64,000 bases of DNA from Quercus robur (Eukaryota > Streptophyta > Magnoliopsida > Fagales > Fagaceae): the NCBI RefSeq assembly GCF_932294415.1, contig NC_065545.1:19038857-19102856 (forward strand), read 5' to 3'. Shown one piece after another: positions 37,809-61,715 of this stretch. The number at the start of each line of letters is the position of its first letter. Positions within the stretch are counted from its first letter, which is position 1. The position numbers and the translations under genes were made by a program. Below the pieces are notes generated by a model. The model worked only from the letters and a program-made list of their open reading frames with translations. It was not told the origin of the DNA and did not search any database.

Positions 37809-39146
37809 GTTTCAAAGAAAATGGCCTTCTGGCCCACCGACCCAAAACACCACCGTAGCCGTACGGTCCATAGTCTCACAAACCCCCCATACTTAACGTC
37901 TTTGAAAAACACGTTGATGCTATTAAAAACACAAAAAGCCAAAGAAAATTACCAATGATGGGAGGGAGAGAGATGGGCGTGTAAGCCAACAAAAAATTGT
38001 GGATTATTTGATTGGCAGTTCAATTTATAAAAAAATATATTTTTACTTAATTCATATCAATTTTTTTTTAAAGAATTTTATAAAATTGTTTACTGCTCTA
38101 ATAATAATAGATTGAGCAAGAAAATGAATTACCGATTTTCATCATCTTTCGAGTCCCACCCGGACAAGTTTGCAGCCTCAGTCAAAGCATCTCTCCACCT
38201 CTTCACCTCGTCTACCTCAAAACACCCCTCATGACTGACAAACGCTTTTTCCAAACTCCCCTTTTGACTTTGAATGTGGGAAGGACTAACCTCGTAGAAA
38301 ACGGGCAGCACAATTTGTTGCAAGTTTTGTTTGCATTCCATTATCTTCGCCAGCTCTCTGAGACACCATTCCGAATCAGCGTAGTTTTCTGAGAACACTA
38401 TAACGGCAATCCTGGACTTCTGAATTGCCTTCTCAAGCTCGGTCCAGATATCTTTCCCTCTCTCAAGCTTTCTGTTATCGTCAAAGCTGTGAATCCCGCT
38501 CCGGTCCAACGCAGCAAAGAGGTGATCGGTAAACTTGTAGCGGGTATCTTTGCCACGGAAACTAACAAAGACATCGTAACTCCATGTTTGGTTGGATGAG
38601 GATGAGGATGGGGATGAAGAAGAAGAACAGGTTTCTTGGGCCATGATGGATGAAAGCATAGCAAATTGACAAAAATCAGTGCACCGTGTTTGGGGGACAT
38701 ATAATACTTGTATAGCCTATAGACTTGGTGGGTGATCTTATATTTATGTGATTGCAGCAAAGAGGAGAGGAAGGAGGAAATGATGGAAAGGGGTTGGAAA
38801 AAATGGGGCAGTGAAGACTGAGTTGTCTGAGGCTTCCTGTGCAGGCGTGGACTCTTTCACTATTGGCGTTGCAGCTAACGCGTCTGCTTTTCTTTATTTT
38901 GTCGGGTCTTAAATTTTTTTTTTCCGTTTCAAAGAATGACATTGCATTTGTGGACATTTACGAAAATGCCATGCTTGTGTAATTAATTAGTGATTCAGAA
39001 TAAGTGATAGTACCCTGTACCTACTACCTAATTTATACTTAGCATAGTTTGTTCCCTCTTTGCCCTTTTCTTCCTTTTCTTTTGCCAATAAAATTACATT
39101 AATGAAATATTTTTAAAAATAAATTAAATCAATAATTACCTTTTGC

Positions 39147-41703: not shown

Positions 41704-42927
41704 TGTTGAGGTCTAAAAAAGCACAGTAAAATAAGCCCAAGAAAGAATAAGCTAAAGCCCAAGAAAGAGTGAGTTAAGCCCAGAAGAAAAATAGACCAAG
41801 TCCAAAGGGATTATACAAAAGGCCCTGAGGATCCCGAAGCCCAGAAAAGGAAAAGCAACCAAAAAAGAAAAAGAGAGAACATCACAGCAAAGTATAAGGC
41901 GCAAGGATCCTCGGGCACCATCAATGAGCGCGAAGAAACAAAAAAAAACCAGGACAGATCGATAGAAAGAAAAACAAGAAAAAAACAAAAGGACGCAAGC
42001 GACCCTTCATGGCACAGACAGAAAAGGCGTCGGGGAACCAAAACAAGGAAGAAGAATGTTAACAAAACGATTTCAAAAGAGCAGAATAGGATTCCGCCCA
42101 AATAGGAAAGAAACGGAGAAGTAAAAGACACCAGAAGTGAGGATGCCGAGAAGGGCATACCTCAGCACATCCCAAAGAGGATGGCCAACCAGAAACTTTC
42201 GAAGGAATCAGAACCAAGAGAAGGAAAGAATGAGAGAAAACGGAAAAGGGGACTTACCAAGATGATGAGGACAGAACATACTCTGTTTACAAAAGACCAA
42301 AACAGGGGAACCAACGGTTCCCCAAGACGCCCAGAAAACTCCACTATAAAAGGAGAGGATGGGTTGTGAAGAAAAGCAGCGAGAAAAAAAGGAAAGAAAC
42401 ACAATAGAAAGAAGAGATTCTCTAGAAAATTATCAGAAAGTTTAGGCAGAAAGAAAATACCAAGGGAAAACAAATACTGCTTCCCGATATCCTGTAAAAG
42501 CAACTATGGCACATACTCGGATCCAACGAGAATCAAACTTCGCAAGTTTTGAAGGCTGAAATAGCCATTCAAGGCTGCAATTTTTGAGCTTGATTGGACC
42601 TTGTATCACGTCCTAGTAAGCTTGCTGTGATCGAATAGATAATGCTTTGATTAAATATTGTTCCCAGGATCCCCACAGTACTTCTCTTTTATTGTCTTGC
42701 TAATCCTGCTTTTCTTTTTTTCTGAGCTTACGTTGTTAATTTCTGGCACTCCTCGATATCCTTGTTTGTCATTTTTGTGTGTTGTCACAGAGTATTCTCT
42801 GCATTCACTTGATTCTTAAACAGCCATTTAGCTGCGGTGAGTCAAGGCCCAGTCCACCAAATCCTTTCTTTTCATTCAGGTCCGGGATCCTTGGGCCTGA
42901 GTATCCCGAGAAAAAAGCACTCTCACA
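41704..42927 (+). repeat. 5' LTR
   Basis: 1224 bp beginning TGTTGAGG and ending CTCTCACA. A TATA box (TATAAAA) at 42345-42351 is the likely promoter of the element. A 113-codon antisense open frame inside is shared with the other LTR and is probably chance. Confidence 0.95.
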
Positions 42928-42930
42928 TTT

Positions 42931-42950
42931 TGGCGACTCCACTGGGGACT
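42931..42950 (+). promoter_or_regulatory. Primer-binding site
   Basis: TGGCGACTCCACTGGGGA lies three bases inside the 5' LTR. It is complementary to a tRNA 3' end ...TCCCCAGTGGAGTCG-CCA, which from memory is the end of a plant tRNA-Arg; Ogre-type elements are primed by tRNA-Arg. Confidence 0.7.
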
Positions 42951-42988
42951 GGGCAAAGAAGAAGGAAGAAACAATCCCTTCGCAGAGA

Positions 42989-43912
42989 ATGCCTCCAAGA
43001 CAAAGAAACAGCAAAGGAACTAACGTGCCACCTACGGCTTCCGAGCCTGTAGGAGAAAACGAGGAAGTCTCCAGACAAGGAGGTGAGATACCCTTGGTAG
43101 AACAGGAGGTTGTGTCAGAACAAAGACACGCAAGACAGGAACCAGACCTAATGGCCAGGATGACAGCAATGTTAAAGGATTTGGAGCAAGAAGTTCGTCT
43201 TCTCAAAGAAGGCAGGACACAGGAAGTCAGAGACAACATTCCCCCTACTGGCCACCAAGATGGGACCCAGCCAGAAGGAGGGTCAGCGGTAGGAGGAAGA
43301 GCCAACCCTCAGTATTTGACACTGGCAGACGTCAATGCCCTCTTGGAGCAAGAAAGGGAAAAACTCTCAGGGATCCCCAAGCAATTCTCTCGGGATCCCC
43401 CGTTCCCTCCAGAACTCCTTGGCAAACCATATCCTAAGGGATACGAACCCCCAAAGTTCCATCCTTTTGATGGGAGGAATGGAAGTGCCGTGGAACATGT
43501 GAGCAGGTTTGTCCACACTATGGGCCCTTATGCAGGAGATAAAGAATTATGTCTAAGGGAATTTGCCAAATCTTTGGTAGATAGGGCATACACCTGGTAC
43601 ACCACGCTGAGACCCGGGTCCATCAAGACCTGGGATGAGATGATGGAAAAATTCTGCGCCAAATATTACCCTGGTGAAGACAAAATTACTTTCCAGAACC
43701 TGCAGATGGTGAGGCAGAGACCTGGAGAAGATCCTGTTCAGTTTATTAAAAGATTCGAAGATGTGTCTCTAGACTGCTATGGAGACCATGAAGAAAAGGA
43801 GCTCGTGGAAACCTGTATAGCCAACATGCTTTTTGATTACAGGCTCAACCTTGAAAATTTATGTATCACACAGTTTGCTGACCTGCTACAGAGAACCAGA
43901 AGGACAGCGTAA
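42989..43912 (+). CDS. Gag (capsid) of the Tat-type element
   Basis: 307 codons from the ATG at 42989. The N-terminal part is charged with a coiled-coil-like segment (MLKDLEQEVRLLKE). From about residue 155 comes a retrotransposon gag domain (YEPPKFHPFDG, FAKSLVDRAYTWYTTL, FCAKYYPGED, VRQRPGEDPVQFIKRF). The frame stops at TAA (43910-43912) and continues open in the same frame after it. No CCHC knuckle is visible before the stop. It would assemble the virus-like particle. The stop could be a simple CAA-to-TAA change. Confidence 0.9.
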   Translation: MPPRQRNSKGTNVPPTASEPVGENEEVSRQGGEIPLVEQEVVSEQRHARQEPDLMARMTAMLKDLEQEVRLLKEGRTQEVRDNIPPTGHQDGTQPEGGSAVGGRANPQYLTLADVNALLEQEREKLSGIPKQFSRDPPFPPELLGKPYPKGYEPPKFHPFDGRNGSAVEHVSRFVHTMGPYAGDKELCLREFAKSLVDRAYTWYTTLRPGSIKTWDEMMEKFCAKYYPGEDKITFQNLQMVRQRPGEDPVQFIKRFEDVSLDCYGDHEEKELVETCIANMLFDYRLNLENLCITQFADLLQRTRRTA

Positions 43913-45214
43913 ACTATGAGAACAAAAAGGCTGCCCGCATCCCAAGCTATGACAGCATCAGCAGGAGAGAAAAGGAAGAGGCCAAATGGGAAGGTGTTTG
44001 AGGAACCGCCAGTGATCCCATGCACAGCTGAGGAGCTAAGCCATGTCCTAGACAAATGGATTGGAGATGGGGTTGTCAGGCCATTCACTGTGTCCAGGCC
44101 GCCAACCGAGGAAGAAAGGAAGAATCCTTTATTTTGCAGAATCCATAATTATGTGAAGCACTCCACTAAGGACTGCTGGACCCTTCGCAGGCTCTTCCAC
44201 AAAAAGTTGAGGGAAGGAACCTTGGAACTCACTCAGAAGGAACCAGAAGTGCAGAGGAACCCCTTACCTAACCACAAAGGAAAAGGGGTGGTAGCAGTAG
44301 TAATACATGGGAACCCAGCAGAGGCAGGAGAATCTGAAGGATCCTTCCACCCGAGTACAGTCAAGACCCTCCAGAAGAATCCTAAGTTCAGGTCACTATT
44401 CAATCAACTAGGATTCGGACCAGAAGCAAGAAGAGTAGCCACAGAGTCTCTCATGAGTATAGCAGCAGATTCAGGGATGGAATGTTTTACAGCTGAGTCA
44501 CATGCTAGTCGAGCTTTCCTGGAGACAACCAATGCAATAACTTTCACTGATGAGGATATGGAGATTGAGCACCCAGACCACCGTAGACCCCTTTATCTAA
44601 TGGCCACCATAAATGGCGTTCAAGTCAGGAGAGCACTGGTGGATACAGGGGCGTCACTCAATCTCATAGCCTTAAGTACCTTGGAAGCTGTTGGCTTAGC
44701 TGACAGAAGGATCCTGGGGACCCCCATGGAAATAACAGGATTTGGAGGATCGGTGGAAGCAACAGAAGGATACGTGCAGCTAGCCTTAAGAGTAGGGCCA
44801 ATAGTAGCTTTGACAAGGTTTCATGTGATTAATGCAGAAGTTTCTTATCACGTGCTGCTGGGACGCCCGTGGCTTCATAAACATCGCCTTATTCCATCCA
44901 CGTTCCATCAATGCATTAAAGGGAGACTGAATGGGAGGCCCATAAGGATCCCTGCCAATCATAATCCTTTCAGCCAGGGAGAAGTGAACTTTGCAGAAAC
45001 AATGTTTTATGATGAGTTGGAGCCAGATGATGAGAACCCCACCCCAGGGACCCCGGGGGCACCTATCCTAGAAGAAGAAGAAGGAGGAAGGGGCACCCGT
45101 GACCTGAGAAACCTTTTAGAAAGAAAAAGACAGAAGAGGGAGCCCAGCTCTTCAGGATCCCGAGAATGTGTGGTGGTGCGGGAACCTGGGGGAAGGCTAA
45201 TTTATCGTTTGTGA
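43913..45214 (+). CDS. Gag C-terminal region and aspartic protease
   Basis: Same frame as gag, with an ATG at 43916. After a basic region containing CRIHNYVKHSTKDC (a Cys/His cluster), a retropepsin-like domain has its active site VDTGASLNLI around residue 242 of the frame and VLLGRPWLHKHRLIP near its end. An acidic/Arg-rich tail leads to a TGA at 45212-45214. In Ogre elements a stop and an intron separate protease from RT. Here the frame simply resumes after the TGA, and a short GT...AG interval at the junction is too GC-rich to call an intron. Confidence 0.87.
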   Translation, partial: TMRTKRLPASQAMTASAGEKRKRPNGKVFEEPPVIPCTAEELSHVLDKWIGDGVVRPFTVSRPPTEEERKNPLFCRIHNYVKHSTKDCWTLRRLFHKKLREGTLELTQKEPEVQRNPLPNHKGKGVVAVVIHGNPAEAGESEGSFHPSTVKTLQKNPKFRSLFNQLGFGPEARRVATESLMSIAADSGMECFTAESHASRAFLETTNAITFTDEDMEIEHPDHRRPLYLMATINGVQVRRALVDTGASLNLIALSTLEAVGLADRRILGTPMEITGFGGSVEATEGYVQLALRVGPIVALTRFHVINAEVSYHVLLGRPWLHKHRLIPSTFHQCIKGRLNGRPIRIPANHNPFSQGEVNFAETMFYDELEPDDENPTPGTPGAPILEEEEGGRGTRDLRNLLERKRQKREPSSSGSRECVVVREPGGRLIYRL

Positions 45215-47428
45215 AGGTGCGCGGGACCCGAATGCATTGTCCAGGAAGGTCCCGGACCACCAAGCTGCATGATGGCCCAAGAAGAAATCCCAGAAGAACC
45301 AGTTAAGGAGGCCCAGATTCAGCCCGAGGAAGAACTGAAGGAAGTAGACCTGGGAACAGAACCAGGATCCCGGAAACCTGTTTTCATTAGCAGTCAATTG
45401 GTGGCTCAAGAAAGAGAACAACTGGTAGCCTTACTTCAAAAATACAGAGATGTGTTTGCATGGACTTATGATGAGATGCCTGGTCTAGACCCGGAGTTGG
45501 TAGTCCATTCTCTTAATGTGGAACCAGGGGTGAGGCCAGTAGTCCAACCAGCCAGGGTCTTCCACACTGAGGTAGAAGCTCAAATAGTCCAAGAAGTCAA
45601 GAAATTACTAGCAGCTGGTTTTATCAAACCCATCCAACACCCAAAATGGCTGTCCAACATTGTACCTGTGAAGAAGAAGAATGGTCAAATCCGCTGCTGT
45701 GTAGACTTTCGCAACTTGAACAAGGCATGTCCTAAAGATGAGTTCCCCTTGCCCAATATCGATCTCCTTGTAGATTCAGCTGCAGGAAACTCAATGTTCT
45801 CATTTATGGATGGGTACAGTGGGTACAATCAAATTCGCATGGCAACCAAAGATGCAGAAAAGACGGCATTCAGAACTCCGATTGGGAACTTTTACTACAC
45901 TGTAATGCCCTTTGGCCTCAAGAATGCGGGGGCTACGTATCAACGGACCATGACAGCCATTTTCCATGACATGATGCATGAGGAGATGGAGGATTATGTA
46001 GATGATATTGTGGTCAAGTCAAAAACCAGAACAGGACATTTCCAAGTACTTGAGCAAGTCTTTGAAAGATGCAGGAAATACAAGTTACGTATGAACCCCA
46101 TGAAGTGCGCCTTTGGAGTGTCTGCTGGAAAGTTCCTTGGGTTCCTGGTACATCACAAAGGCATAAGCGTGGATCCAGCCAAGGCCACAGCTATTGCCAC
46201 GATGAGAAGACCAACTACTGTTAGAGAACTCAAAAGCTTCCTGGGAAGGGTCTCCTATATCAGGAGGTTTGTGCCTGGTTTAGCCTCAGCTACGGCAGGC
46301 TTATCAAAATTACTGAAAAAGGGAAATGAATTCACCTGGGGAACAGAGCAGCAGGAAGCTTTTCAAAGAATTCAAAGCATTATGAACCATCTGCCCACCC
46401 TCCAGGCACCAGTACGTGGGCGACCTCTGTTGCTATACTTAGCATCGAACTCTCAGGCAATAGGAGCTTTACTGGCACAAGAAGATGACCAAGGAAATGA
46501 GCAGCCCATATACTATGTAAGCAGAACACTCAAGGATACCGAAACCAGGTACCCCAGAATAGAGAAAGCCTGCCTAGTAATCGTTTATGCATCCCAAAGA
46601 TTGAAGAGGTACTTCTCAGCTCACCAAATCCTCTTGGTAACCAAGTCACACCCCATAAAAGCACTACTGCACCAGCCCCTCCTCACGGGAAGGATGGCAC
46701 AATGGCTAGTATTGCTCTCACAATATGATATAGGCACAAGAACTCCCAAGGCTGTAAAGAGCCAGGCCATAGCAGATTTGCTAGCCCAATTCCCAGGGAA
46801 GGAAGAAGGCCCGCTCAGCGAAGAAATCCCTGGTGAGGTAGCAGTGATGGAGATCCCAGGAAAGAAATGGACCATGAGGTTCGACGGGTCAGCTACAGCA
46901 ACTTCAAATGGGGTAGGAATTGTGCTAAGCTGTGAAAATGGGGATGTCATGCCCCTGTCTTTTAAGCTTGGTTTCTCGTGTTCTAATAATGCAGCTGAGT
47001 ATGAGGCGTACTTGACCGGGTTGGCTATAGCACTCAGCATAGGAGTGAGACACATGAGAGTGCTGGGAGATTCTAATCTTGTAGTCTCCCAAGTGAAAGG
47101 TGACTTTGCATTACGGGAACAAAGCTTAGCAGCCTACAGGACTTGGGCACAAAGACTGGAAATGGAATTTCAAACCTTCAGCATAGAATACACTCAAAGG
47201 AGCGAAAACAGGTTCGCAGATGCTCTCGCCACCCTGGGATCCCAAATACCATTTGATGAGAAAGATACACTGATAAGAATAGGAAGGCAGGAACATTCTA
47301 TTGTGAGGATCTTCCAAGGAATGTACCCAGGGGAATCCAAGCAGTGGGACTGGAGGGACGAAGTCAAAGAAAGGATGAAAGAAGTAAATCCTAGGGGGAG
47401 CATCAAAGAGCTAATGGATTACGCTTAG
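45215..47428 (+). CDS. Reverse transcriptase and dual RNase H
   Basis: From the ATG pair at 45269 the frame encodes an RT (WLSNIVPVKKKNGQIRCCVD, FPLPNIDLLVD, FSFMDGYSGYNQI, active site YVDDIVVKS at residue about 243). Next is a gypsy-type RNase H (LLLYLASNSQAIGALLAQ, YYVSRTL), then a second, RVT_3-like RNase H (MRFDGSATATSNGVGIVL, NNAAEYEAYLTGL, VLGDSNLVV). Dual RNase H is a mark of the Tat lineage. The frame ends at TAG 47426-47428 and continues open in the same frame. Confidence 0.92.
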   Translation, partial: RCAGPECIVQEGPGPPSCMMAQEEIPEEPVKEAQIQPEEELKEVDLGTEPGSRKPVFISSQLVAQEREQLVALLQKYRDVFAWTYDEMPGLDPELVVHSLNVEPGVRPVVQPARVFHTEVEAQIVQEVKKLLAAGFIKPIQHPKWLSNIVPVKKKNGQIRCCVDFRNLNKACPKDEFPLPNIDLLVDSAAGNSMFSFMDGYSGYNQIRMATKDAEKTAFRTPIGNFYYTVMPFGLKNAGATYQRTMTAIFHDMMHEEMEDYVDDIVVKSKTRTGHFQVLEQVFERCRKYKLRMNPMKCAFGVSAGKFLGFLVHHKGISVDPAKATAIATMRRPTTVRELKSFLGRVSYIRRFVPGLASATAGLSKLLKKGNEFTWGTEQQEAFQRIQSIMNHLPTLQAPVRGRPLLLYLASNSQAIGALLAQEDDQGNEQPIYYVSRTLKDTETRYPRIEKACLVIVYASQRLKRYFSAHQILLVTKSHPIKALLHQPLLTGRMAQWLVLLSQYDIGTRTPKAVKSQAIADLLAQFPGKEEGPLSEEIPGEVAVMEIPGKKWTMRFDGSATATSNGVGIVLSCENGDVMPLSFKLGFSCSNNAAEYEAYLTGLAIALSIGVRHMRVLGDSNLVVSQVKGDFALREQSLAAYRTWAQRLEMEFQTFSIEYTQRSENRFADALATLGSQIPFDEKDTLIRIGRQEHSIVRIFQGMYPGESKQWDWRDEVKERMKEVNPRGSIKELMDYA

Positions 47429-48934
47429 ATAGAAGGAGAATTGTACAGAAGACTGCCAGGAGGAATACTGTCCAGATGTATCACCGAGAAGGAAGGGAAG
47501 TTGAAATTAGAAGAATTACACGCCCAAACATGTGGAGTTGCAGAAAAAGTCAGCCTATACAGGAGGATGCAACGCATGGGGTACTACTGGCCAGACATGG
47601 ACAAGGAAGCAGCAGTCATACAGGGGAAATGTAAAGAATGTCGTTTGGCAATCGATAAAGAAGAAAGCTACGCTGTGTTTGTTATGGAAGATTGGCGGGT
47701 TCCTTTCATAGGATACCTGGCTCAGGGTATCCTGCCAACCGACAAGGAGCCGGCCCATAAGCTCAAGAAACTGGCGTGCAGGTATTTCTTGCAGAATAAT
47801 ATTTTGTTCAAAAAAGGATACCACGGGGATCCCCTCAGGTGCCTGGGACCAAAGGAAGCCAGAGAAGTACACTCTGGAGATTGCGGAAGTCACCCAGGAA
47901 AGAGAAGGCTGCACAAGCAGTTACTGTTGTTGGGGTATTACTGGCCAACGATGAAAAGAGACTCTGAGGAGCTGGTCAGAACATGTCATGCTTGCCAAGT
48001 CCTAGGAGATGCGATTCACACTCACCCAAATGTCCTACAGGATATGACGACACCATGGCCTTTTCATACTTGGGGGTTCGATCTCATAGGGCCCATAAAT
48101 CCTCCATCCAATGGTTACATATGGATCCTGGCAGCCACGGAGTACTTTACAAAATGGGTAGAGGCCATCCCTTTGAAAAAAGCTACTGGAGCAGCTGTAG
48201 CAAATTTCATTCGAGACCACATCATCACAAGATTCGGGATCCCCAGAAGATTGATCAGCGATAATGGAACCCCATTCATAAACAAAGATGTGAAGGGATT
48301 AACTGAAGCATACCACATCAAGCAGGGAAGATCTACCCCATACTACCCACAAGGAAACGGCCAAGCTGAAGCTACTAACAGGGTAATATTAAAAATCCTT
48401 AAGAAAATGAAGCATGAGTATGGAGGAAAATGGAGTGACCATTTGGCAGATGTGCTTTGGGCATGTAGGAGCTCTGTAAAGACAGCCACGGGATTCTCCC
48501 CATTCTCCCTGGTTTATGGAACCGAGGCCATCAGCCCTGTGGAGTTAATCATTCCTACACCAAGGGTAGTTCTTGAGGAAAATCAGGGAGAAAGTGACGA
48601 CGCAAGCAATGAAAAGAGATTAGTAGATCTGGAAGGAGTAGAAGAAGAAAGGGAACTGGCCAAGAAAAGAAGCCAAAGATACCAGCAAAGAATGACCAGA
48701 GCATATGCACAAGCAGTACGCCCAAGAGTGTTCACCAAAGGGCAACTAGTGCTAAGGATGGCGGAGCACGTGAGGAGGAACCTGCCAGGGCCTTCCAAGT
48801 TCACCCCAAAATGGGAAGGACCCTACATCATCAACACAGCTCATGAAAGTGGATATTATTACCTTGCCAAAGAAGATGGAACAGTCCTGACAGAACCCAT
48901 AAATGGGAAGTGGCTGAAGCAATATTATGCATGA
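47429..48934 (+). CDS. Integrase, with a duplicated zinc-binding module
   Basis: There is no ATG near the start: the open frame follows the TAG directly, and the first Met is deep inside, so it needs readthrough or an unmutated parent. Two zinc-module-like segments occur in tandem, one with GYYWPDMDKEA and CKECR, the other with HSGDCGSHPGKRRLHKQL, GYYWPTMKRD and CHACQ. The catalytic core shows the D, D, E positions in FDLIGP, SDNGTPF and GQAEATN, followed by GKWSDHLADVLWACR and the C-terminal part ending near KWEGPYII. It would insert the cDNA into the chromosome. The first zinc module lacks the second His (CGVAEK where the other has CGSHPGK). Confidence 0.9.
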   Translation: MEGELYRRLPGGILSRCITEKEGKLKLEELHAQTCGVAEKVSLYRRMQRMGYYWPDMDKEAAVIQGKCKECRLAIDKEESYAVFVMEDWRVPFIGYLAQGILPTDKEPAHKLKKLACRYFLQNNILFKKGYHGDPLRCLGPKEAREVHSGDCGSHPGKRRLHKQLLLLGYYWPTMKRDSEELVRTCHACQVLGDAIHTHPNVLQDMTTPWPFHTWGFDLIGPINPPSNGYIWILAATEYFTKWVEAIPLKKATGAAVANFIRDHIITRFGIPRRLISDNGTPFINKDVKGLTEAYHIKQGRSTPYYPQGNGQAEATNRVILKILKKMKHEYGGKWSDHLADVLWACRSSVKTATGFSPFSLVYGTEAISPVELIIPTPRVVLEENQGESDDASNEKRLVDLEGVEEERELAKKRSQRYQQRMTRAYAQAVRPRVFTKGQLVLRMAEHVRRNLPGPSKFTPKWEGPYIINTAHESGYYYLAKEDGTVLTEPINGKWLKQYYA

Positions 48935-49719
48935 GGACAAGGGGATCCCCAGTACCTCAGGGTCCTTTCACCAACTTCACTATCTGCTAAGTTCCTTTTA
49001 TTTTGTCTTTTTATTTTTTTTTAGCCTTTATCAAAATTCTAGCCTAAGATAATTTTGTTCAGGAACATGTGATAGATTGACACTTTGTGGTCAATGCTGC
49101 ACCAAAAGACTTTTGCTTTGTTCCAAAAAAAAAATGATTATGTTTTAACGAAATTCCTGTTTCTTCAAAGTTTAAATTTTCTTATTGCAAAGACCAAATT
49201 TGGATAAATTTAAGGAAGGATACCTGAGTCAAAAAAAAAAGAGGAGAATATGTAATACCCCTTTTTACATATGGCCCAGGATCCACCACACAAATAATTT
49301 CGGATATCCCACAAACAGTCCCAAGTGCATAGGTCTAGGATCACAGAATAAAAGAAAATATCTAGGATACCTAGCCTAGCACTTGGCAAAAGGGGAACCT
49401 GTCAAAGTTCATGAACTGGGACCGTATCTAAAAAAAAAAACATACATAGAGAAGGATACTAGTGTACCCAGCTCAGTACTTGCACAATAAGTCACCAAGT
49501 ACCTGGACCAGAACTTACAGTGAAACCTGTGAAAACCATGGTCCAGGACTCAGGAAAGAAAAGAATCACAAGAAAGTAAAGACAATATATATACATCCAA
49601 GGAAAAAGGCAGATTCACATACCAAGAAATAAGAAGCAGTTTTGAAGCACAAAAGAGAAAGAGCAGAGCAATGTTTAAAAAAAATTATACAACCCCAAAT
49701 TGTTCATATAAAAAAAAAA
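48935..49719. other. Spacer between integrase and the antisense gene
   Basis: No coding sequence on either strand; both genes end into it. It is probably the shared 3' UTR zone of the convergent transcripts. Confidence 0.5.
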
Positions 49720-52700
49720 CTAAGGAATGAGGCCGGCCAACAGAGAAGCATCTGGAGAAATAGCAGGAACAGCCAAAGAAGAAAGGATCCTCTGCCGCTT
49801 GACTTTCAAATCTTGTAGAACTTTGTGAGCATGAGCCAAAGCTTTCTCAGCAACAGCTATCTCAGTGTCTATACTCTTGAATGATTGCCTTTGAAACAGC
49901 ATATGAGCCAGCAGACGCAAGTGATCCAGCAGGAAAGACAAATTAAACTTGGCCTCTAGAAGATCCTGCACCACCCCTCTCCATTCCAGAAGCTTTTCTT
50001 CAGACAACGAATCAACGGAGGAATTCTTTAGAGAAATCAACACAGCACACAGCAACTCCATCAAAATATTGCCTAGAAAAATGCCTCCCCTGAAGCCACT
50101 GGTAAAATCCCCGTGACTCTTGAGCAGGCTCTCTAGCAGTGGCAAGCCCTCCACAGGAACAGAGAAGCGCAGGAAGCTGCCATAAGAAGACCCAAAGACA
50201 TGAAAGTGGCTGGCAGGAAGACTGTTGAATTCCAAAAGATCGAAGCGAGCCAGGAAAGAAGAAAGCTTTGAATCAAGATCTGAGGCAGCCACCTTCGAGG
50301 CATCCCCCATCACCGCGTCACCACTTGTAGAAACCTGAGGACTTGCAGCCTGTTGCTCTGGATGAAGATCAGCAACTTCAACAGGTCTCACAATTCCTTC
50401 AGGGATAGCAGGCTCAGAACCTGCAAAGCCTGTATCAATATTCAAAAAAAAAAAAGAGAAGAAAAAGAAAAGGAAGAACAGATTTAGAAGAAACAAACCG
50501 GTTCCAGTTTCTTGAGGCAGAACCTCTTCTTCCTGATCTCCTGACGTCCCCGAGGATTCTGGGAAAGAACATAAGGCAAGTTGAAGAAAAGGTGAAGGAC
50601 CGATGGCAAACTGGCTAAAGGAAGGGATAGATGCAGGGGGCTTCGCCATACATATAAAAAAGAGAAAAAGGGGGGGGGGGAAAGGAAAAGGAAAACACGA
50701 TGGAACAGCTTGCACTCACCTTCTGAGCTCTCTGATTCTAAAGAAGAGGCAACACTGGGAGCGGGTTTCTCACTGGTTTGACCTAAAAGGAAAAGAAGGA
50801 ACTCAAGAGAAAACTGGGAAAGAGAGTGAAACATAACGTTATTTCAAAAGAAACAAGCTTTACCTGTTTGTTTGGATAAATGAGTGTCTCCCAAAGCACC
50901 TTTATCTGACAAGGACTGAGGAAACACAGTTTTGATAGGACTGGGAGTGCGTTCGAGATGGGGACTTCGAGATGATGGGATCCTAGAAGCTTTGGGATCC
51001 TGAGAGTCCTGGGAACCTTGCATCGGCTGCCCAATTTCCTCAACAGGGTCATCAGTAGGAGGCTCCTCCCCCATAACAGGAAAAATGACAGAAAGAGCTG
51101 TGATAGTTTCCTCCCCCAGAGCCTTGCCAGTCGTAGGAGGGGATACCTCCACCTAAAGAAAGGAGAAGCAGAGAAGGCAATACTAAGTAAAAAAAAAAAG
51201 AAGAAAACAGCAGGAATGCTAGCAACACAGAAAGAACAGAAGAAGGGGGAACACACGTACCACGTCGTCTCCAGAAGATTGACTTTTACCCTTCTTATAA
51301 TCAGACTTGCGCTTGGACTGCAAAGAAAATCACCACTCGTCAGCAAAGATAGAAAATGAATGCAACAAAAAAAAAAAAGAGAGAAGAAGGAAAGAAGTCT
51401 TGCCCTTCTCTCTCTCTCTACAGATTCTCTGGAAGTCTTTTGCTTACTACGAGTACGCCCAGAGGGTCCTAAAGGAGGCTGGGATACCAAACCAGAGGAT
51501 CCTAAAGAACCATGGACTGAAGCAGTCACAGGAACCTGGGGAAAAGAAGACTCTACCTTGGTCTTCTTCCGGGTCCTTGAAACTAAAGGTTCCTTGACAT
51601 CCTTGCCTTCGTGAGATGCCAAGTGTGCTTGAGATTTCCCCGTTTTCCTTCTTTTTGCTTCAGAGCCTATCTCCACACCCCCTGCACTTTCGCCAACATC
51701 AGCAGCTTTCATTTTCTTCAACTTAACATCCTTACCTTTAGCAGTAGCAGCACTAATTGTCTCTGTTGCACCCTTTTTGATGGGCACCCCAGAGGAGGTA
51801 CCAATGATAAGACTATCACCCAGCCAGGCCTCAGGAAGATCCTGTCCATAAGTCACCCAACCTCCCCTGGAGGAATGCCACTCTGCGAACCCAGTCTTGC
51901 TGCTTGCAGCAGCAGAAACAATCCCAGCAGTAGGAAGGGATAAACGTCTATTAGCTGTCGGAGCAGAAACAATGCTAGAGTTCGGGACTTCCCGAATTGT
52001 ACCAGTGCCAACATAGTCAACAAAAGATTTCTGTACTCTTCTCCAATAACCGGTATAGCCACTGGAAGCAAAGACTCCTCTCTGGGAGTTAGGCACCACG
52101 AACTGGGGGCTCCTCCGAGACCAATAAGAAAAGGCCTGCAGCTTCAAGAAAGGATCCAAGGAAGGAAGGGATGGCACCACATCCTTGAAAACTGGCGGGA
52201 TATCTTGATCAAAACCAAACTGTCGAAGCACCCGGTGTGCTGAATAATGAGTGTACTTTGGGCCACTTGAAGAAGGCACGGGAAGCCAGGAGGGGCTAAT
52301 GCAGGCAAGGTAAGCCAGACTGCCCTCATCACCACTGCGCAAGTCGAAGGTATTACCTGTTGAAGATAAAAAAGAAGACAACACAGAATCACACGCGAAG
52401 CCAGGACCAAACTCACGAGGGGATCTCCAACATAAGCTCCCTGCTTGGTCAAACAACTCCACAAGATTGAGGCCACCACCTTTTAAGCTAATCCAATGAA
52501 AAATAATGGGAAAGGCATCAGTAGAATTGCCACAAAGACCCTTCACTATGTCGGGGGATCCTTGGAACTTGTCCTTCACAAACTTCAAATTTCTGCACTT
52601 AGCCAAAGTGGCTGCAGAACGGTCCCACATAAAAATCTGAAGAATGGCACAATGAAGAGATGAAGTAATCACATAGCAAGAGTCACCCTCAGCCTCATCT

Positions 52701-53614
52701 CCATGAAGCTGGTCCAGTTGAGAATAAACGTGACCCAAAAACAGAGGGGCCAAAGGATATTGAGTACCTCGGGCCAACTTGATAGCCAACGGAAAAAGCG
52801 AAGACTTAACTCCGTACCCAGGGAACTCGCTAAACAAAAATTTACTAAGCCAGAAAGCCAGGAAACCAGCCCACCTTACTTCCTTATCCTTTTCACGAGA
52901 GAGGGTCATCACCCATCTCCCCATCCTAGCCGGCTTACCACCAGGAGAGGCGGAGCGACCACCAAAATGACCAAATAATTTCTCTTCTACCACAAGATCC
53001 TCACCAGAAAGGTCAATATCAAAGGGATTCTCTTCACCAAACACTGGGAGGAGGAAGTTGTTAACCACATCCTCCAAGGTGATTGTCAATTCACCAGTAG
53101 AAAAGAAAAAAGTATGAAGGGAAGGGCACCAACGACGTACCAGATGCCTGAGCCCTTTGGCGTCTCTGAAACCCTCAAGGTTTCTGGAAATAGCCACTGC
53201 CTTTAGGATGCCGGCGCGCTCCAAACGACCCACAAACTCAGCATCAGACAGTTCCTTGTCTACCCATATGGGCCAACCCTGAATCTTCCCCGCCACAAAA
53301 TCAAAGAAAATAGGAACCGCCTCTCGGATTCCTTGTCTGATCTGGAGATCGAAAACCTCTCTAGGGTCAGGAACCTGGGCGGAACCAGCGAAACCCGCTT
53401 GGCCAGAAAATAGCCAAACGTGAGGGGATGGAGGAGCCTCACCATGAGAAATATGAGGAAAAAATAAACTGGGAGAATACCAAGGATCCCGTAGAGGGAA
53501 GGCTGGACGCTCGACAACCTCATGAGAATCGCTCGGAGCAGAACCAGAAGAACCTTCACCCTCAGAAGGACCAGGAGTACGCTCTCTCCTCTTTCGATAA
53601 GAAGAAGAAGCCAT
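49720..53614 (-). CDS. Antisense plant-mobile-domain gene inside the retrotransposon, six exons
   Basis: From ATG 53614 the exons are 51422-53614, 51261-51317, 50864-51152, 50720-50782, 50499-50558 and 49720-50429. All introns are GT/AG and the phases fit throughout, giving 1123 residues with no internal stop. The N-terminal half is an aminotransferase-like plant mobile domain (PMD): HLVRRWCPSLHTFFF, GELTITLEDVVNNFLLPVFG, then KEVRWAGFLAFWLSKFLF. A Lys/Ser-rich, probably nuclear-targeting stretch follows (residues about 620-830). The C-terminal exon is helical, ending in a coiled-coil-like segment around AVAEKALAHAHKVLQDL. PMD proteins of the MAIN/MAIL1 type act in transposon silencing and development; whether this copy helps or counters silencing is unknown. 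Coding integrity in a young element suggests selection. Confidence 0.85.
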
Positions 53615-54113
53615 GGAAACACACTATGGAGAAGAAAAGAGATTGAAGGTGCGAAAAAGGAAGACCAGAGTAACAGAGAAGAAGAGGAAAAGAAAGAGAA
53701 ACACAGAGAGCGAAATAACCCAGAGAAGCAAAGTGATAAGATGAAACGGCTACAATAAAGGCGCAAATAGCAGTTGGGGAAAACAGTTTATGAAAAGACG
53801 CGCCAGTTGCCAAAGAATTTAATTTGAAGTAGGGGTTACAGCAGTTATTAATGAGAAATAACGGGAAACGAGGAAAGTGGGTAGAGGAGTTTCACCTCAA
53901 ATATCCAACTGCCACGTCCCGTATAAAGAGGAAGCTGCGAAAGAATAAGGGAATACAACACGCAAAAAAGAGGCGAATAGAAGCAGCAGAAAAGAGCCGG
54001 GATCCCAAGTAAATAGGAAGGGAACCCAGTAAAAGTTGAAAAAAAGGGGATACCACAAGAACCTAAGGAAACCTAAATCACTCACGCGTGGGCTTCAGGC
54101 AACCCACGAGCTC
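53615..54113 (-). other. Presumed promoter/5' region of the antisense gene
   Basis: About 500 bp between the antisense start codon and the polypurine tract, with no ORF of its own. No convincing TATA box was found; transcription could also start antisense inside the 3' LTR. Confidence 0.35.
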
Positions 54114-54124
54114 GGGGGGCTAAA
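54114..54124 (+). promoter_or_regulatory. Polypurine tract
   Basis: GGGGGGCTAAA directly before the TG of the 3' LTR, in the place where plus-strand DNA synthesis is primed. Confidence 0.75.
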
Positions 54125-55349
54125 TGTTGAGGTCTAAAAAAGCACAGTAAAATAAGCCCAAGAAAGAATAAGCTAAAGCCCAAGAAAGAGTGAGTTAAGC
54201 CCAGAAGAAAAATAGACCAAGTCCAAAGGGATTATACAAAAGGCCCTGAGGATCCCGAAGCCCAGAAAAGGAAAAGCAACCAAAAAAGAAAAAGAGAGAA
54301 CATCACAGCAAAGTATAAGGCGCAAGGATCCTCGGGCACCATCAATGAGCGCGAAGAAAAAAAAAGAAGACCAGGACAGATCGATAGAAAGAAAAACAAG
54401 AAAAAAACAAAAGGACGCAAGCGACCTTTCATGGCACAGACAGAAAAGGCGTCGGGGAACCAAAACAAGGAAGAAGAATGTTAACAAAACGATTTCAAAA
54501 GAGCAGAACAGGATTCCGCCCAAATAGGAAAGAAACGGAGAAGTAAAAGACACCAGAAGTGAGGATGCCGAGAAGGGCATACCTCAGCACATCCCAAAGA
54601 GGATGGCCAACCAGAAACTTTCGAAGGAATCAGAACCAAGAGAAGGAAAGAATGAGAGAAAACGGAAAAGGGGACTTACCAAGATGATGAGGACAGAACA
54701 TACTCTGTTTACAAAAGACCAAAACAGGGGAACCAACGGTTCCCCAAGACGCCCAGAAAACTCCACTATAAAAGGAGAGGATGGGTTGTGAAGAAAAGCA
54801 GCGAGAAAAAAAGGAAAGAAACACAATAGAAAGAAGAGATTCTCTAGAAAATTATCAGAAAGTTTAGGCAGAAAGAAAATACCAAGGGAAAACAAATACT
54901 GCTTCCCGATATCCTGTAAAAGCAACTATGGCACATACTCGGATCCAACGAGAATCAAACTTCGCAAGTTTTGAAGGCTGAAATAGCCATTCAAGGCTGC
55001 AATTTTTGAGCTTGATTGGACCTTGTATCACGTCCTAGTAAGCTTGCTGTGATCGAATAGATAATGCTTTGATTAAATATTGTTCCCAGGATCCCCACAG
55101 TACTTCTCTTTTATTGTCTTGCTAATCCTGCTTTTCTTTTTTTCTGAGCTTACGTTGTTAATTTCTGGCACTCCTCGATATCCTTGTTTGTCATTTTTGT
55201 GTGTTGTCACAGAGTATTCTCTGCATTCACTTGATTCTTAAACAGCCATTTAGCTGCGGTGAGTCAAGGCCCAGTCCACCAAATCCTTTCTTTTCATTCA
55301 GGTCCGGGATCCTTGGGCCTGAGTATCCCGAGAAAAAAGCACTCTCACA
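54125..55349 (+). repeat. 3' LTR
   Basis: 1225 bp, nearly identical to the 5' LTR. Visible differences include an A-rich indel region near 54356-54371 and C/T changes near 54427 and 54508. The TATA box is at 54767-54773. Confidence 0.95.
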
Positions 55350-57936: not shown

Positions 57937-60523
57937 ATGGGTAGATTTAAGCACCTAGTAGACTCCCCTGCCATAGAGGCCTTTAAGGATAAATATCACA
58001 TACCCCAAGGAGTTGCCCTACGATATTGTTCCCCAGAACAAATAGTGACACATAGAGAAAGGGGGGAAGTCATCATCCCTATGATAGCTTTCATAGAAGG
58101 GGGGATGACTCTCCCTATGGGTATGATAACACGGGATTACCTCCTCAATCATAGGATATGCCTCCACCAATGTGCGCCCAACCTATTTAGGGTCCTAGGT
58201 AGTGTTGATGCTCTCAACAAGCATCTGCGCTTGGGGCTCACCGACATGATGTGGTCTATATGTACAAGTGCCACTCCCTTAAAAAGGCGGGATATTACCT
58301 CAAGTCCCGATCTGACGTTGTCAGATTAGTATCATGTCTACCTAAATCTAACAAGGGTATGAAAGACGACTATCTGATAGTTTCGGGAGCGTGGCATGAT
58401 GGCCTTCACTGCCCCATCCGAGAGGGAAAGCTAGGTGGGATACCTTAGTGTTAGGTTCTATAGCAAAAGATCTAGATTCTTTGACCCCGACCATGTCATT
58501 ATTTCTTTTTCATCCTACTTTCTTTTGATGATGGATTTTAGCTTTCTAACTATGTTTTGTTTCTCGGCTACCTTTGCAGATAAGAGGCACATGGCACCTA
58601 GACTCAGCTTTACCAACGTTGCCACTCTCAATTACTTGTTGAGATCCAAGATTTTTGTATGTGAGGATAGCCAGCTGCAAGCCGTCCATCTAATTTTGGA
58701 CTTTGAGCCAATCTCGGAGGTATACCAAGATATTGGCAACGCTATAAGGGCAGGTGACCCACGGCTGGCTCGTATTGACGTGTCATTGCCAAGTTTCTTA
58801 GCTCGCGACGCCCTTCCACCGGTTGCACCGCCACTCCAACAGAACCCTCCTCTGATTGTATAACCAGTCCATCAGGTTCTACCTGAAGCAGTAGTAGCGA
58901 GGGAAGAGATCGCCTCCTCAAACTCCTCGCTTGAAGAAAAAATTGACAAGTTTCATTTTGAAGAGGAGGAGAGCCAAGGAGTACAAGTAATCCCTATCTC
59001 GGACACCGAGGGCGAACCAGACAGGCATTCAAGTGTCCAAGCTCCGGTTCTAGTAGTTGCTCGTCTGGACAGCTCATCAGAGGAAGAAGAGGACGAAATG
59101 GCCTTGAACCGGGGGAACAAGAGCTTAAGAGACCTCATGGCTTCCAGGAGCAAGGTGTCAACTTCGAAAGAAGCCACCAAGTCCCAAGTTCCTACTAATC
59201 TTCCCCCTCCTTCTTCTTAGATCTCCACTGACTTCGAATTGAAGCCAATTCCTAATTTGAAGAAGAAAATGCCAATTGAGGTGCTTGAGGAATGTGAGGT
59301 GGTTCCTTAGAAGGGGACAAAACAACAGAAAGTGGCCAAAGATGCCCGGGACAAGAGGTCCCACTCTGTGGACAGCCGAGAGCAGGAAAATAGGACTGAC
59401 GTGTGCATGACGCAACAAACCTGGTCTCCTCGGTTGGAGGTGGATGGGACTCCCATCCCTTGGAACGCCTCAGTCCTAGAATTTCAAAGGGGTCGTGCGG
59501 GATACATTGCTGAAGCCCTGGAGCGGCCTTTACTCCTTTCGAAGGATATGGAAGCTTATAGGCATTTCAAGCAGAATGACCTTTTCCTGTCCTTGAAGAG
59601 AGACCTTGTTATGGTAAGCAATCTATCATATCCGTGAATTTGAATGCTAAGCTGTATTTTCGTTCTTTCTTTACTTTTTAACTCGTGATTTTTCCATTGT
59701 CTTTGGGCAGATTGTTCAGCAAGTTTTCGTGGCCAAGGAGTGGGTTCGTGACGCTCAAAATGAGGCCAAGGCTGAGGCCTTCTCCAGTGCTGATGTTGAA
59801 AAATCATTGGGGGCCTTCAAACAGGAGTAGGCTGAGATGTCCGAGAAGCTGAAAGCAGCGGACCAGGCTCGCCTGAGTGCTGAGGTGGGTCTAAAGACCG
59901 TAGAAAGGCAAGTTGAGGACCGGCGCCAAAAACTGCACTTGACCGAGATAGATCTAGCCACCTAGAGGCAATTGGTCGTTGATCTTAAGGTTGAGCTACA
60001 AAAGGCCATGGAGGCAGCTCAACTGGCCAAGGAAGTAGTTGAGGCTGAGAAGCAAGCATCTTATCTGCTAGGCATGGAGGAGACGCAGATTAGGCTTGTT
60101 GAGGAGCCTTCAGAGGTATGTAGGGATTACTACAATGCGACATGGGATAAGGCCCTTAGCATTGCAAGAGTCCCTGCAGACTCTGTTTGGAGGCAACCCG
60201 GGAGCATGTACTATCATCCGGATATCCGTGAAGTCCTAGGTGCCATCTCCTCTCCCTCTACCCTTGCTCTAGAGAATTCTGAGCAGCCCCCGGCTATCCA
60301 AGCTGCTCTCCCTCTCCCTGAGGCTTCGAAGGGATCCAGCCAAGCTGGCGATCAAGGCCAGAGGGCTGAGGGGGAGAAAGACAAGGGTAAGGGCAAGGGG
60401 AAAAAGCCTTCTGCAAAAGCCAAGGACATTGCCAAGGATAGGGAAGATGCAGCCAAGGTGAAGGAAGTAGAGATCAAGACCCAAGAAGTTGATCCTAATG
60501 TCAAGGACGCTCCTACCTCCCAG
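57937..60523 (+). pseudogene. Intron-containing 'putative plant transposon protein'-like gene antisense to the second element, decayed
   Basis: Three exons read in one scheme: 57937-58434, 58580-59613 and 59711-60523, with GT/AG junctions and consistent phase. The N-terminal part (IPQGVALRYCSPEQI, VIIPMIAFIEGGMTLPMG) resembles the domain of unknown function in plant transposon-associated proteins (Transposase_28-like; from memory). An acidic middle and a coiled-coil C-terminal half (AEMSEKLKAADQARLSAEV, KAMEAAQLAKEVVEAEKQA) follow, with a Lys-rich tail. It is broken by a frameshift near 58215-58250 and in-frame stops at 58861 (TAA), 59218, 59308, 59828 and 59963 (all TAG). It occupies the place that the PMD gene has in the intact element. 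A last donor at 60523 has no clear partner exon. Confidence 0.75.
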
Positions 60524-60849
60524 GTAAGCTAGAAAGAGGACCTTTCTTCTCCCAGGGCCAAAGCCTAGCACTTAGAATTTTCTTTGTAATTTTTTTTTAA
60601 TGACATTCTGTCAATGTATGTAATGTACTTTCTCTTTCATTTAATGATAATTTTTTTCTCTTCATTTCTTGCATTTTTTTTCTATGTGCTCCAAGTACCA
60701 CTATTATAAATAGGATTGAACTTTTGTTACTTTACCTTTAGTAAAAACCGATAACAATACACTGTTAACAATTTAAGGAGTTTAACACATACCTGTACTT
60801 TGAATTGACCATTTCAGAGCTACCAATCTGAGGAGTTGGTTATAATATT

Positions 60850-61715
60850 AGGTTTGTCTTGACAGTTAGTGAGAAACAAAAAAGATATCACAATGTGTTA
60901 ATTTTACCAAAGTATGTAGTCTGAGAAGCCTGACATAACTTAGGTTCTGTTTTCCACTTATATAAAGATGTTATAGAGTGTTAATTTCAATTAAGTATGT
61001 GGTCCGAAGAGCCTAACATAACTTAGGTTCTGTTTAATACTTATAAAAAATTGAATAGATGTCAGAGAGTGTTAATTTTGCCAAAGTATGTGGTCTGAAG
61101 GACCAGGTATAGCTAAGGTTTTGTTTAACACTTAGAAAAAATGAATAGATGTCAGAGAATTTTGCCAAAGTATGTGGTCCAAGGGACCAAGCATAGCTAA
61201 GATTCTGTTTAACACTGATAAAGATGTTATTAAGTGTTAATTTCACCCAAGTATTTGGTCCGAGAGACCTGAAATAACTTAGGATCTGTTTAACACTTAT
61301 AAAGATGTCATTAAGTGTTAATTTCACCCAAGTATGTGGTCCGAGAGACCTGACATAACTTAGGATCTGTTTAATACTTATAAAGATGTCATTGAGTGTT
61401 AATTTCACCCAAATATGTGGTCCGAGAGACTTGACATAGCTTAGGATCTGTTTAACACTTATAAAGATGCCATTGAGTGTTAATTTCACCCAAGTATGTG
61501 GTTCGAGAGACTTGACATAATTTAGGATTTGTTTAACACTTATAAAAATGCTATTGAGTGTTAATTTCACCCAAGTATGTTGTCTAAGAGACCTGACATA
61601 ACTTAGGATCTGTTTAACACTTATAAAGATGCCATTGAGTGTTAATTTCACCCAAGTATGTGATCCGAGAGACTAGCATAATTTAGGATTTGTTTAACAC
61701 TTATAAAGAACAAAT
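60850..61715. repeat. Tandem repeat, about 10 units of roughly 81 bp
   Basis: The unit reads like 'gttaatttcacccaagtatgtggtccgagagacctgacataacttaggatctgtttaacacttataaagatgtcattgagt'-type sequence. It is best conserved at 61210-61700 and more diverged towards 60850. The period is a multiple of three, so the minus strand (the sense strand of the retroelement) is open for 205 codons (61034-61651), giving peptide repeats such as VKLTLNDIFISVKQILSYV. This is probably not a protein; tandem arrays near the 3' side of pol are common in Tat elements. Confidence 0.85.

Follow-up and report, generated by a model that had tools for sequence, protein, structure and literature searches.

A six-exon antisense gene with a plant mobile domain, kept by purifying selection in a Ty3/gypsy retrotransposon family of Quercus robur

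Plant retrotransposons are known to carry extra open reading frames (ORFs) in antisense orientation, the function of which is open, and a review from 2020 urges a search for antisense and spliced transcripts (PMC7264820). According to the same review, the antisense protein of gene23 in the maize Grande element is nuclear and has its own promoter. A plant mobile domain (PMD) is reported in the extra ORF of 57% of Ogre elements, in a survey whose classes include reverse-oriented 3′ ORFs (Neumann 2019, PMC6317226), and almost all young Retand elements are described as carrying antisense TRP28 genes (Vicient 2025, PMC11963269). Furthermore, two PMD clades, PMD-A1 and PMD-A2, are reported to be exclusive to Gypsy elements (Ikeda 2017, PMC5418596). 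Here, we describe an antisense PMD gene in a stretch of 64,000 nucleotides of Quercus robur (assembly GCF_932294415.1, contig NC_065545.1, positions 19,038,857 to 19,102,856), the whole of which is referred to as the window. The gene runs on the minus strand from 53614 to 49720, between pol and the 3′ long terminal repeat (LTR) of a complete Ty3/gypsy LTR retrotransposon that occupies 41704–55349.

The gene resembles the Ogre extra ORFs in that a Tat-clade element encodes a PMD outside its usual set of genes, in an extra ORF. It differs in having six exons, conserved splice sites and measured selection, whereas the published ORFs were collected with getorf at a length of at least 250 codons, the survey's account leaving the orientation of the PMD ORFs unstated (Neumann 2019, PMC6317226). 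With the antisense TRP28 ORFs of Retand, which occur in dicots and monocots and are possibly regulatory, it shares its position between pol and the 3′ LTR, but the domain in those ORFs is Transposase_28, and they are presented as ORF Finder ORFs, with no introns in their description (Vicient 2025, PMC11963269). For Grande gene23, expression has been reported and the review mentions neither a PMD nor introns, whereas the gene in the window is known from sequence (PMC7264820). Like the PMD-A1/A2 clades it is a PMD in a Gypsy element, although a role in silencing is here only putative (Ikeda 2017, PMC5418596). Extra ORFs with a PMD in Ogre elements, and extra ORFs in antisense at large, are already published; what appears to be new is the combination of antisense orientation, several introns and measured selection in a PMD gene. 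Our literature search, with most subscription papers and a 2011 extra-ORF survey outside its scope, returned no such gene, and surveys based on continuous ORFs would miss its small exons. We consider it quite probable that a Ty3/gypsy family of the Tat clade (Ogre/Retand group) has in this locus an accessory gene, which is transcribed by the host in antisense, spliced and selected, and which most likely helps its carrier element.

Structure and conservation of the antisense gene

The six exons encode 1123 amino acids with no stop. Exon 1 (51422–53614) comprises residues 1–731, with the PMD at residues 136–524 and basic motifs at 654 and 681, and is followed by exon 2 (51261–51317), exon 3 (50864–51152), exon 4 (50720–50782), exon 5 (50499–50558) and exon 6 (49720–50429), which encodes the C-terminal part. 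The starts of exons 5 and 6 were placed on the AG using the alignment of copies. Exon 1 matches the PMD profile PF10536 at 114.5 bits (E 8.1e-33, profile positions 2–346 of 347), the curated cut-off being 34.9 bits. The frame at 49720–50433 shows a weak match to PEARLI-4 (PF05278) of 27.6 bits, below the cut-off of 29.9. Exons 1 and 6 were scanned for further domains and gave these two matches only, not the TRP28 domain (PF04195) of the Retand antisense genes. Single-sequence structure models were too poor for a fold search, with a predicted local distance difference test score (pLDDT) of 35.9 for the PMD and of 48.9 for exon 6, where two long helices are modelled. A comparison of exon 1 with solved structures gave no match at E up to 1.

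An open phase alone is weak evidence for a gene model of this kind, and the support is carried by the comparison of copies. Open splice chains are easily found by search: an unconstrained splice search of the same DNA returned other open chains, the eight best having 16 exons each, which were rejected, the method being blind to conservation. That the six-exon frame is itself a chance chain of this sort is refuted by the PF10536 match, by the pattern of exon lengths and by the frame-specific constraint described below, and we assign this explanation next to no probability.

Copies of the gene were collected from the window's own assembly with a DNA query blind to the reading frame, which gave 477 first-look candidates, of which at least 38 were scored. 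Full length was found in 36 of these, including the window's own copy, and the 30 most similar were analysed. Two tandem pairs (L028/L029 and L037/L038) have identical genes, and one member of each (L029 and L038) was left out of the rate counts, leaving 28 distinct copies. Exons 2, 4, 5 and 6 are 57, 63, 60 and 710 nucleotides long in 30 of 30 copies and exon 3 is 289 long in 29, the only deviations in exon length being one extra base in exon 1 (2/30) and one missing base in exon 3 (1/30). Introns 1–5, by contrast, occur in 9, 11, 4, 16 and 14 different lengths among the same copies. Counted as distinct events among the 28 copies, indels number 2 in the 3372 bp of exon versus 53 in the 523 bp of intron. 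The donor GT of introns 1–5 is kept in 29, 30, 30, 30 and 29 of the 30 copies and the acceptor AG in 30, 30, 30, 29 and 30. The three losses, at the intron 1 donor, the intron 4 acceptor and the intron 5 donor, each affect a single copy of the 28, and no copy of the 30 has lost an intron. The surroundings are shared as well: in all 27 other distinct copies aligned, pol lies on one flank and the LTR on the other, with 453 gaps in the LTR part of one of them (L020).

The reading frame is without stop or frameshift in 15 of the 28 distinct copies. In a separate protein search, biased towards intact copies, 61 exon 1 matches out of 1542 candidates were scored, and 46 of these had no stop. Two lesions that might have been inherited were considered and set aside. 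The extra base in exon 1 common to L019 and L023 lies in a T run, and a nonsense change at residue 326 in L010 and L037 is made by different stop codons; in neither case are the carriers nearest relatives, which makes recurrence likelier. Apart from these, lesions are shared only within the two tandem pairs. The pairs are themselves of note as an observation on the assembly: together with a third (G000:C4:28999466 and 29011926), their members lie about 12.4–12.5 kb apart. This is near the length of one element minus one LTR, which would fit either tandem elements with an LTR in common or an assembly duplication.

The mean pairwise ratio of nonsynonymous to synonymous divergence (dN/dS) over the whole gene is 0.182 among the distinct copies. 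By segment it is 0.131 for exon 1, 0.084 for the PMD, 0.259 for residues 525–731, 0.333 for exons 2–5 and 0.261 for exon 6, the PMD thus having the lowest value of the segments computed. The constraint is specific to the frame, with ratios of 1.39 and 1.58 for the two alternative forward frames in exon 1, and of 0.974 and 0.633 for those of exon 6. The synonymous divergence (dS) of the gene, 0.070, is near the intron distance of 0.059. Furthermore, each of three basic motifs (KRRK, TRKKTK and SKRKSDYKK) is without change in 27 of the 28 copies. The original prediction, which had described an intact gene of six exons with GT/AG sites encoding 1123 residues and a PMD, is upheld by these copies and by the profile match. 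Its claim that the introns survive retrotransposition agrees with their presence in every copy, and the dN/dS check among family copies that it had proposed gives a value well below 1.

Division of the variants by their frequency separates what is inherited from what is private. Variants present in at least two copies have a ratio of nonsynonymous to synonymous changes (N/S) of 0.42 and include 1 nonsense change, whereas those in a single copy have an N/S of 1.51 and include 13 (Fisher p 1.7e-13); in the PMD, N/S is 0.15 for shared variants and 1.37 for singletons. Two mutation spectra were used for the neutral expectation, giving N/S of 2.25 and 2.31 and 0.119 and 0.129 nonsense changes per synonymous change. 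From the 168 shared synonymous variants about 20–22 nonsense changes would be expected, where 1, probably recurrent, was seen; from the 139 singleton synonymous variants about 17–18 would be expected, where 13 were seen. Taken together, coding sequence and splice sites are shown to be kept by purifying selection along the transposing lineage, with single inserted copies decaying much more freely. Nonsense changes are nearly all private, and selection therefore acts on what transposes, as it does in the sampled pol.

Such a filter on inheritance through transposition is the pattern of a gene that benefits its carrier element, and argues against a domesticated host gene. A benefit in cis assumes several source copies, and very few sources would give the same pattern. 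Domestication of a host gene, or its recent capture by this one element, could account for the intact state of the gene in this copy. However, the gene is present in all 30 copies analysed, in the same arrangement between pol and LTR in the 27 other distinct ones, and private changes are nearer neutral where shared ones are constrained, so that we consider this explanation very improbable.

The same data bear on the possibility that the antisense RNA matters rather than the protein, through regulation by double-stranded RNA. Antisense transcripts of such elements may, according to the review cited above, feed small-RNA pathways (PMC7264820), and phased small interfering RNAs have been reported from PMD genes in tea (PMC10673657). 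As the only role this is disfavoured and in our view improbable, as constant exon lengths and frame-specific dN/dS require a protein; the RNA may act additionally.

The host element and its sense frame

The carrier element is bounded by a 5′ LTR (41704–42927) and a 3′ LTR (54125–55349), both on the plus strand, which agree in 1220 of 1225 columns. The differences are 4 mismatches and 1 gap, and 4 substitutions in 1224 positions correspond to a divergence of 0.0033. The 5-bp target-site duplication AAATC precedes the 5′ LTR and follows the 3′ LTR. The element is young, as had been predicted. A putative primer-binding site starting with TGG lies just after the 5′ LTR (42931–42948). The sense frame begins with the first ATG at 42989 and encodes gag and protease up to 45211 (PF03732, PF13975). 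After a constitutive TGA at the junction of protease and reverse transcriptase (45212–45214), it continues from 45215 to 48934 with reverse transcriptase, RNase H, a second RNase H (RVT_3) and integrase (PF00078, PF17917, PF13456, PF00665). With its LTRs, target-site duplication and order of gag, protease, reverse transcriptase, RNase H and integrase, the element is of the Ty3/gypsy type.

A second RNase H (aRH) between RNase H and integrase is reported as the mark of the Tat clade, the Ogre/Retand group (Neumann 2019, PMC6317226). In the profile scan PF13456 was found at residues 556–673, after PF17917 at 403–504, with the integrase in the next ORF, and the element is placed in the Ogre/Retand part of the Tat clade because its second RNase H lies between the first one and the integrase. 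The Ogre lineage is described by a primer-binding site for tRNA-Arg and an intron in POL, and its Medicago type by an extra ORF upstream of gag. The element shares with Ogre the PMD in an extra ORF. An extra ORF of the Medicago type was not found, only 61 bp separating the end of the LTR (42927) from the first ATG of the gag frame (42989).

The original prediction had counted three stops in the sense frame and concluded that the antisense gene is better preserved than the polyprotein. All three stops exist, at 43910, 45212 and 47426, but only two are private lesions. The TGA at 45212 is a feature of the family, being found in all 20 other copies. None of 20 has the stop at 47426, and of 41 places matched for 43910 only the window itself has the stop. 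For this copy the conclusion stands, since gag-pol has two private lesions where the antisense gene has none. It does not extend to the family: of the 20 pieces from other copies around each of 47426 and 45212, 3 in either set contain a private stop, and dN/dS of pol is 0.168 at the C-terminus, 0.218 around 47426 and 0.289 around 45212. Two copies with offset pieces (L066 and L086) were left out of these ratios and retained in the counts of stops. The 400-base piece around 45212 is less constrained by its ratio than the other pol pieces because dS is low there. At the C-terminus of pol, N/S is 0.34 for shared variants and 1.74 for singletons. The sampled pol is not clearly less preserved family-wide, and its C-terminal part is as constrained as the antisense gene.

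The low dS around the constitutive TGA is an observation in its own right: at 45060–45407 it is 0.024 (20 rows), versus 0.056 around 47426 and 0.078 at the C-terminus of pol, as if the DNA there might hold a further signal. RNA structure around the TGA is nothing special (z 0.35).

Origin and possible role of the protein

The original prediction had called the gene captured. A PMD profile search of the genome gave 182 matches, with 113 of 2377 candidates scored, and the identity comparison covered the eight best-scoring loci. The element PMD is 25–28% identical to these over about 370–450 residues, the eight being 39–80% identical among themselves. Judged by these identities, a recent capture from the eight best-scoring loci is excluded, leaving aside whether those eight lie outside elements. 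Published Gypsy-exclusive PMD-A clades also speak against recent host capture, and the identity of 25–28% appears compatible with membership in them (Ikeda 2017, PMC5418596). The same search brought up two features of the genome at large. At least 10 PF10536 matches, eight of them near the full domain at 320–396 bits, lie within 249 kb at G000:C37:13170895-13419556, which by its layout is a tandem cluster of PMD genes. Many further dispersed matches to profile parts of about 1–212 and 233–347, with near-identical scores, suggest other repeat families carrying PMDs.

In the genomic RNA the introns of an antisense gene are ordinary sequence, and hence they are carried along. The host would transcribe the gene opposite to gag-pol and splice it, and the introns would survive transposition with the genomic RNA being the other strand, where they read as CT...AC. 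The product, 1123 residues long, would consist of a PMD joined by a basic linker to a helical C-terminus, and its location would be nuclear, judging from the conserved basic motifs and the report on the Grande antisense protein. It would most likely help its carrier element, through a benefit in cis or by way of few source copies.

What this help consists of can be stated with less confidence. The protein might serve replication, for example through entry into the nucleus, export of the genomic RNA or selection of the integration site, with no part in silencing. Constraint similar to that on the sampled pol and the conserved basic motifs are consistent with this, and passage to the nucleus or RNA transport has been discussed for antisense ORFs generally (PMC7264820). 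No motif or fold links the protein to such a step, the single-sequence model being unusable at the pLDDT given above; we hold this role to be possible, if tentative.

Our own tentative preference is for a protein that interferes with the silencing of the element in the nucleus or with its chromatin control, because the host PMD proteins MAIN and MAIL1 act there; nothing in the analysis ties the protein directly to either of them. In its specific form, put forward in the original prediction, the idea of a PMD anti-silencing protein that competes with or blocks the MAIN/MAIL1 pathway is possible but doubtful. It would fit the PF10536 domain having the lowest dN/dS of the segments computed and the silencing of transposable elements by MAIN and MAIL1, and an anti-silencing use of captured PMDs has been proposed. 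However, the PMD is only distantly similar to the eight best-scoring loci, and the published proposal concerns PMDs captured by DNA transposons (Ikeda 2017, PMC5418596). The fullest version seems rather unlikely: an antisense nuclear gene complete with promoter, five introns and splicing that serves to make a PMD anti-silencing factor, each element needing its own intact copy to transpose. If true, an old arms race would have the PMD silencing proteins of the host on one side and the PMDs of elements on the other. VANDAL elements are MULEs, an element class different from Ty3/gypsy. A functional likeness may nonetheless exist to their VANC, transposon proteins that counter host silencing (PMC5735166, PMC10398659).

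Several points weigh against an accessory gene that is transcribed, spliced and selected for the benefit of its element. We infer transcription and splicing from selection. Upstream of the ATG, Jukes–Cantor (JC) distances at 53601–54000 are 0.054–0.077, as against 0.059 in the introns; a lower value, 0.023, is seen only at 54001–54100, adjoining the LTR. Most of the upstream sequence is no more conserved than introns, and therefore no promoter is demonstrated. The frame is broken in 13 of the 28 distinct copies, and among the 15 with an open frame there is one in which the intron 1 donor is gone. N/S of the singletons is also lower than the neutral expectation, so that the division into private and inherited changes is not clean, and the neutral N/S ignores methylation context. 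Homopolymers of at least six bases, of which there are five in the 523 bp of intron versus three in the 3372 bp of exon, may add to the intron indels. The 30 copies are those nearest to the window copy, out of at least 38 scored and 477 candidates, and leave the older history unsampled. Finally, the low identity to other PMDs gives no pointer to mimicry.

The accessory-gene reading nevertheless has codon-level selection, splice-site conservation and a near lack of inherited lesions on its side, which indicate that the gene is spliced and in use, and that it is needed about as much as the sampled pol. With it, a connection between the PMDs of elements and the silencing PMD proteins of the host becomes testable.

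Other features of the window

Plus-strand ORFs are found at 57937–61709, one with a sub-threshold match to Transposase_28 (E 0.051), followed by an array of 81-base repeats; this region is perhaps a remnant of the pol-3′ LTR region of a Retand-type element. On the minus strand, 38132–38716 encodes a TIR domain (180 bits), which is probably part of a TIR-type resistance gene.

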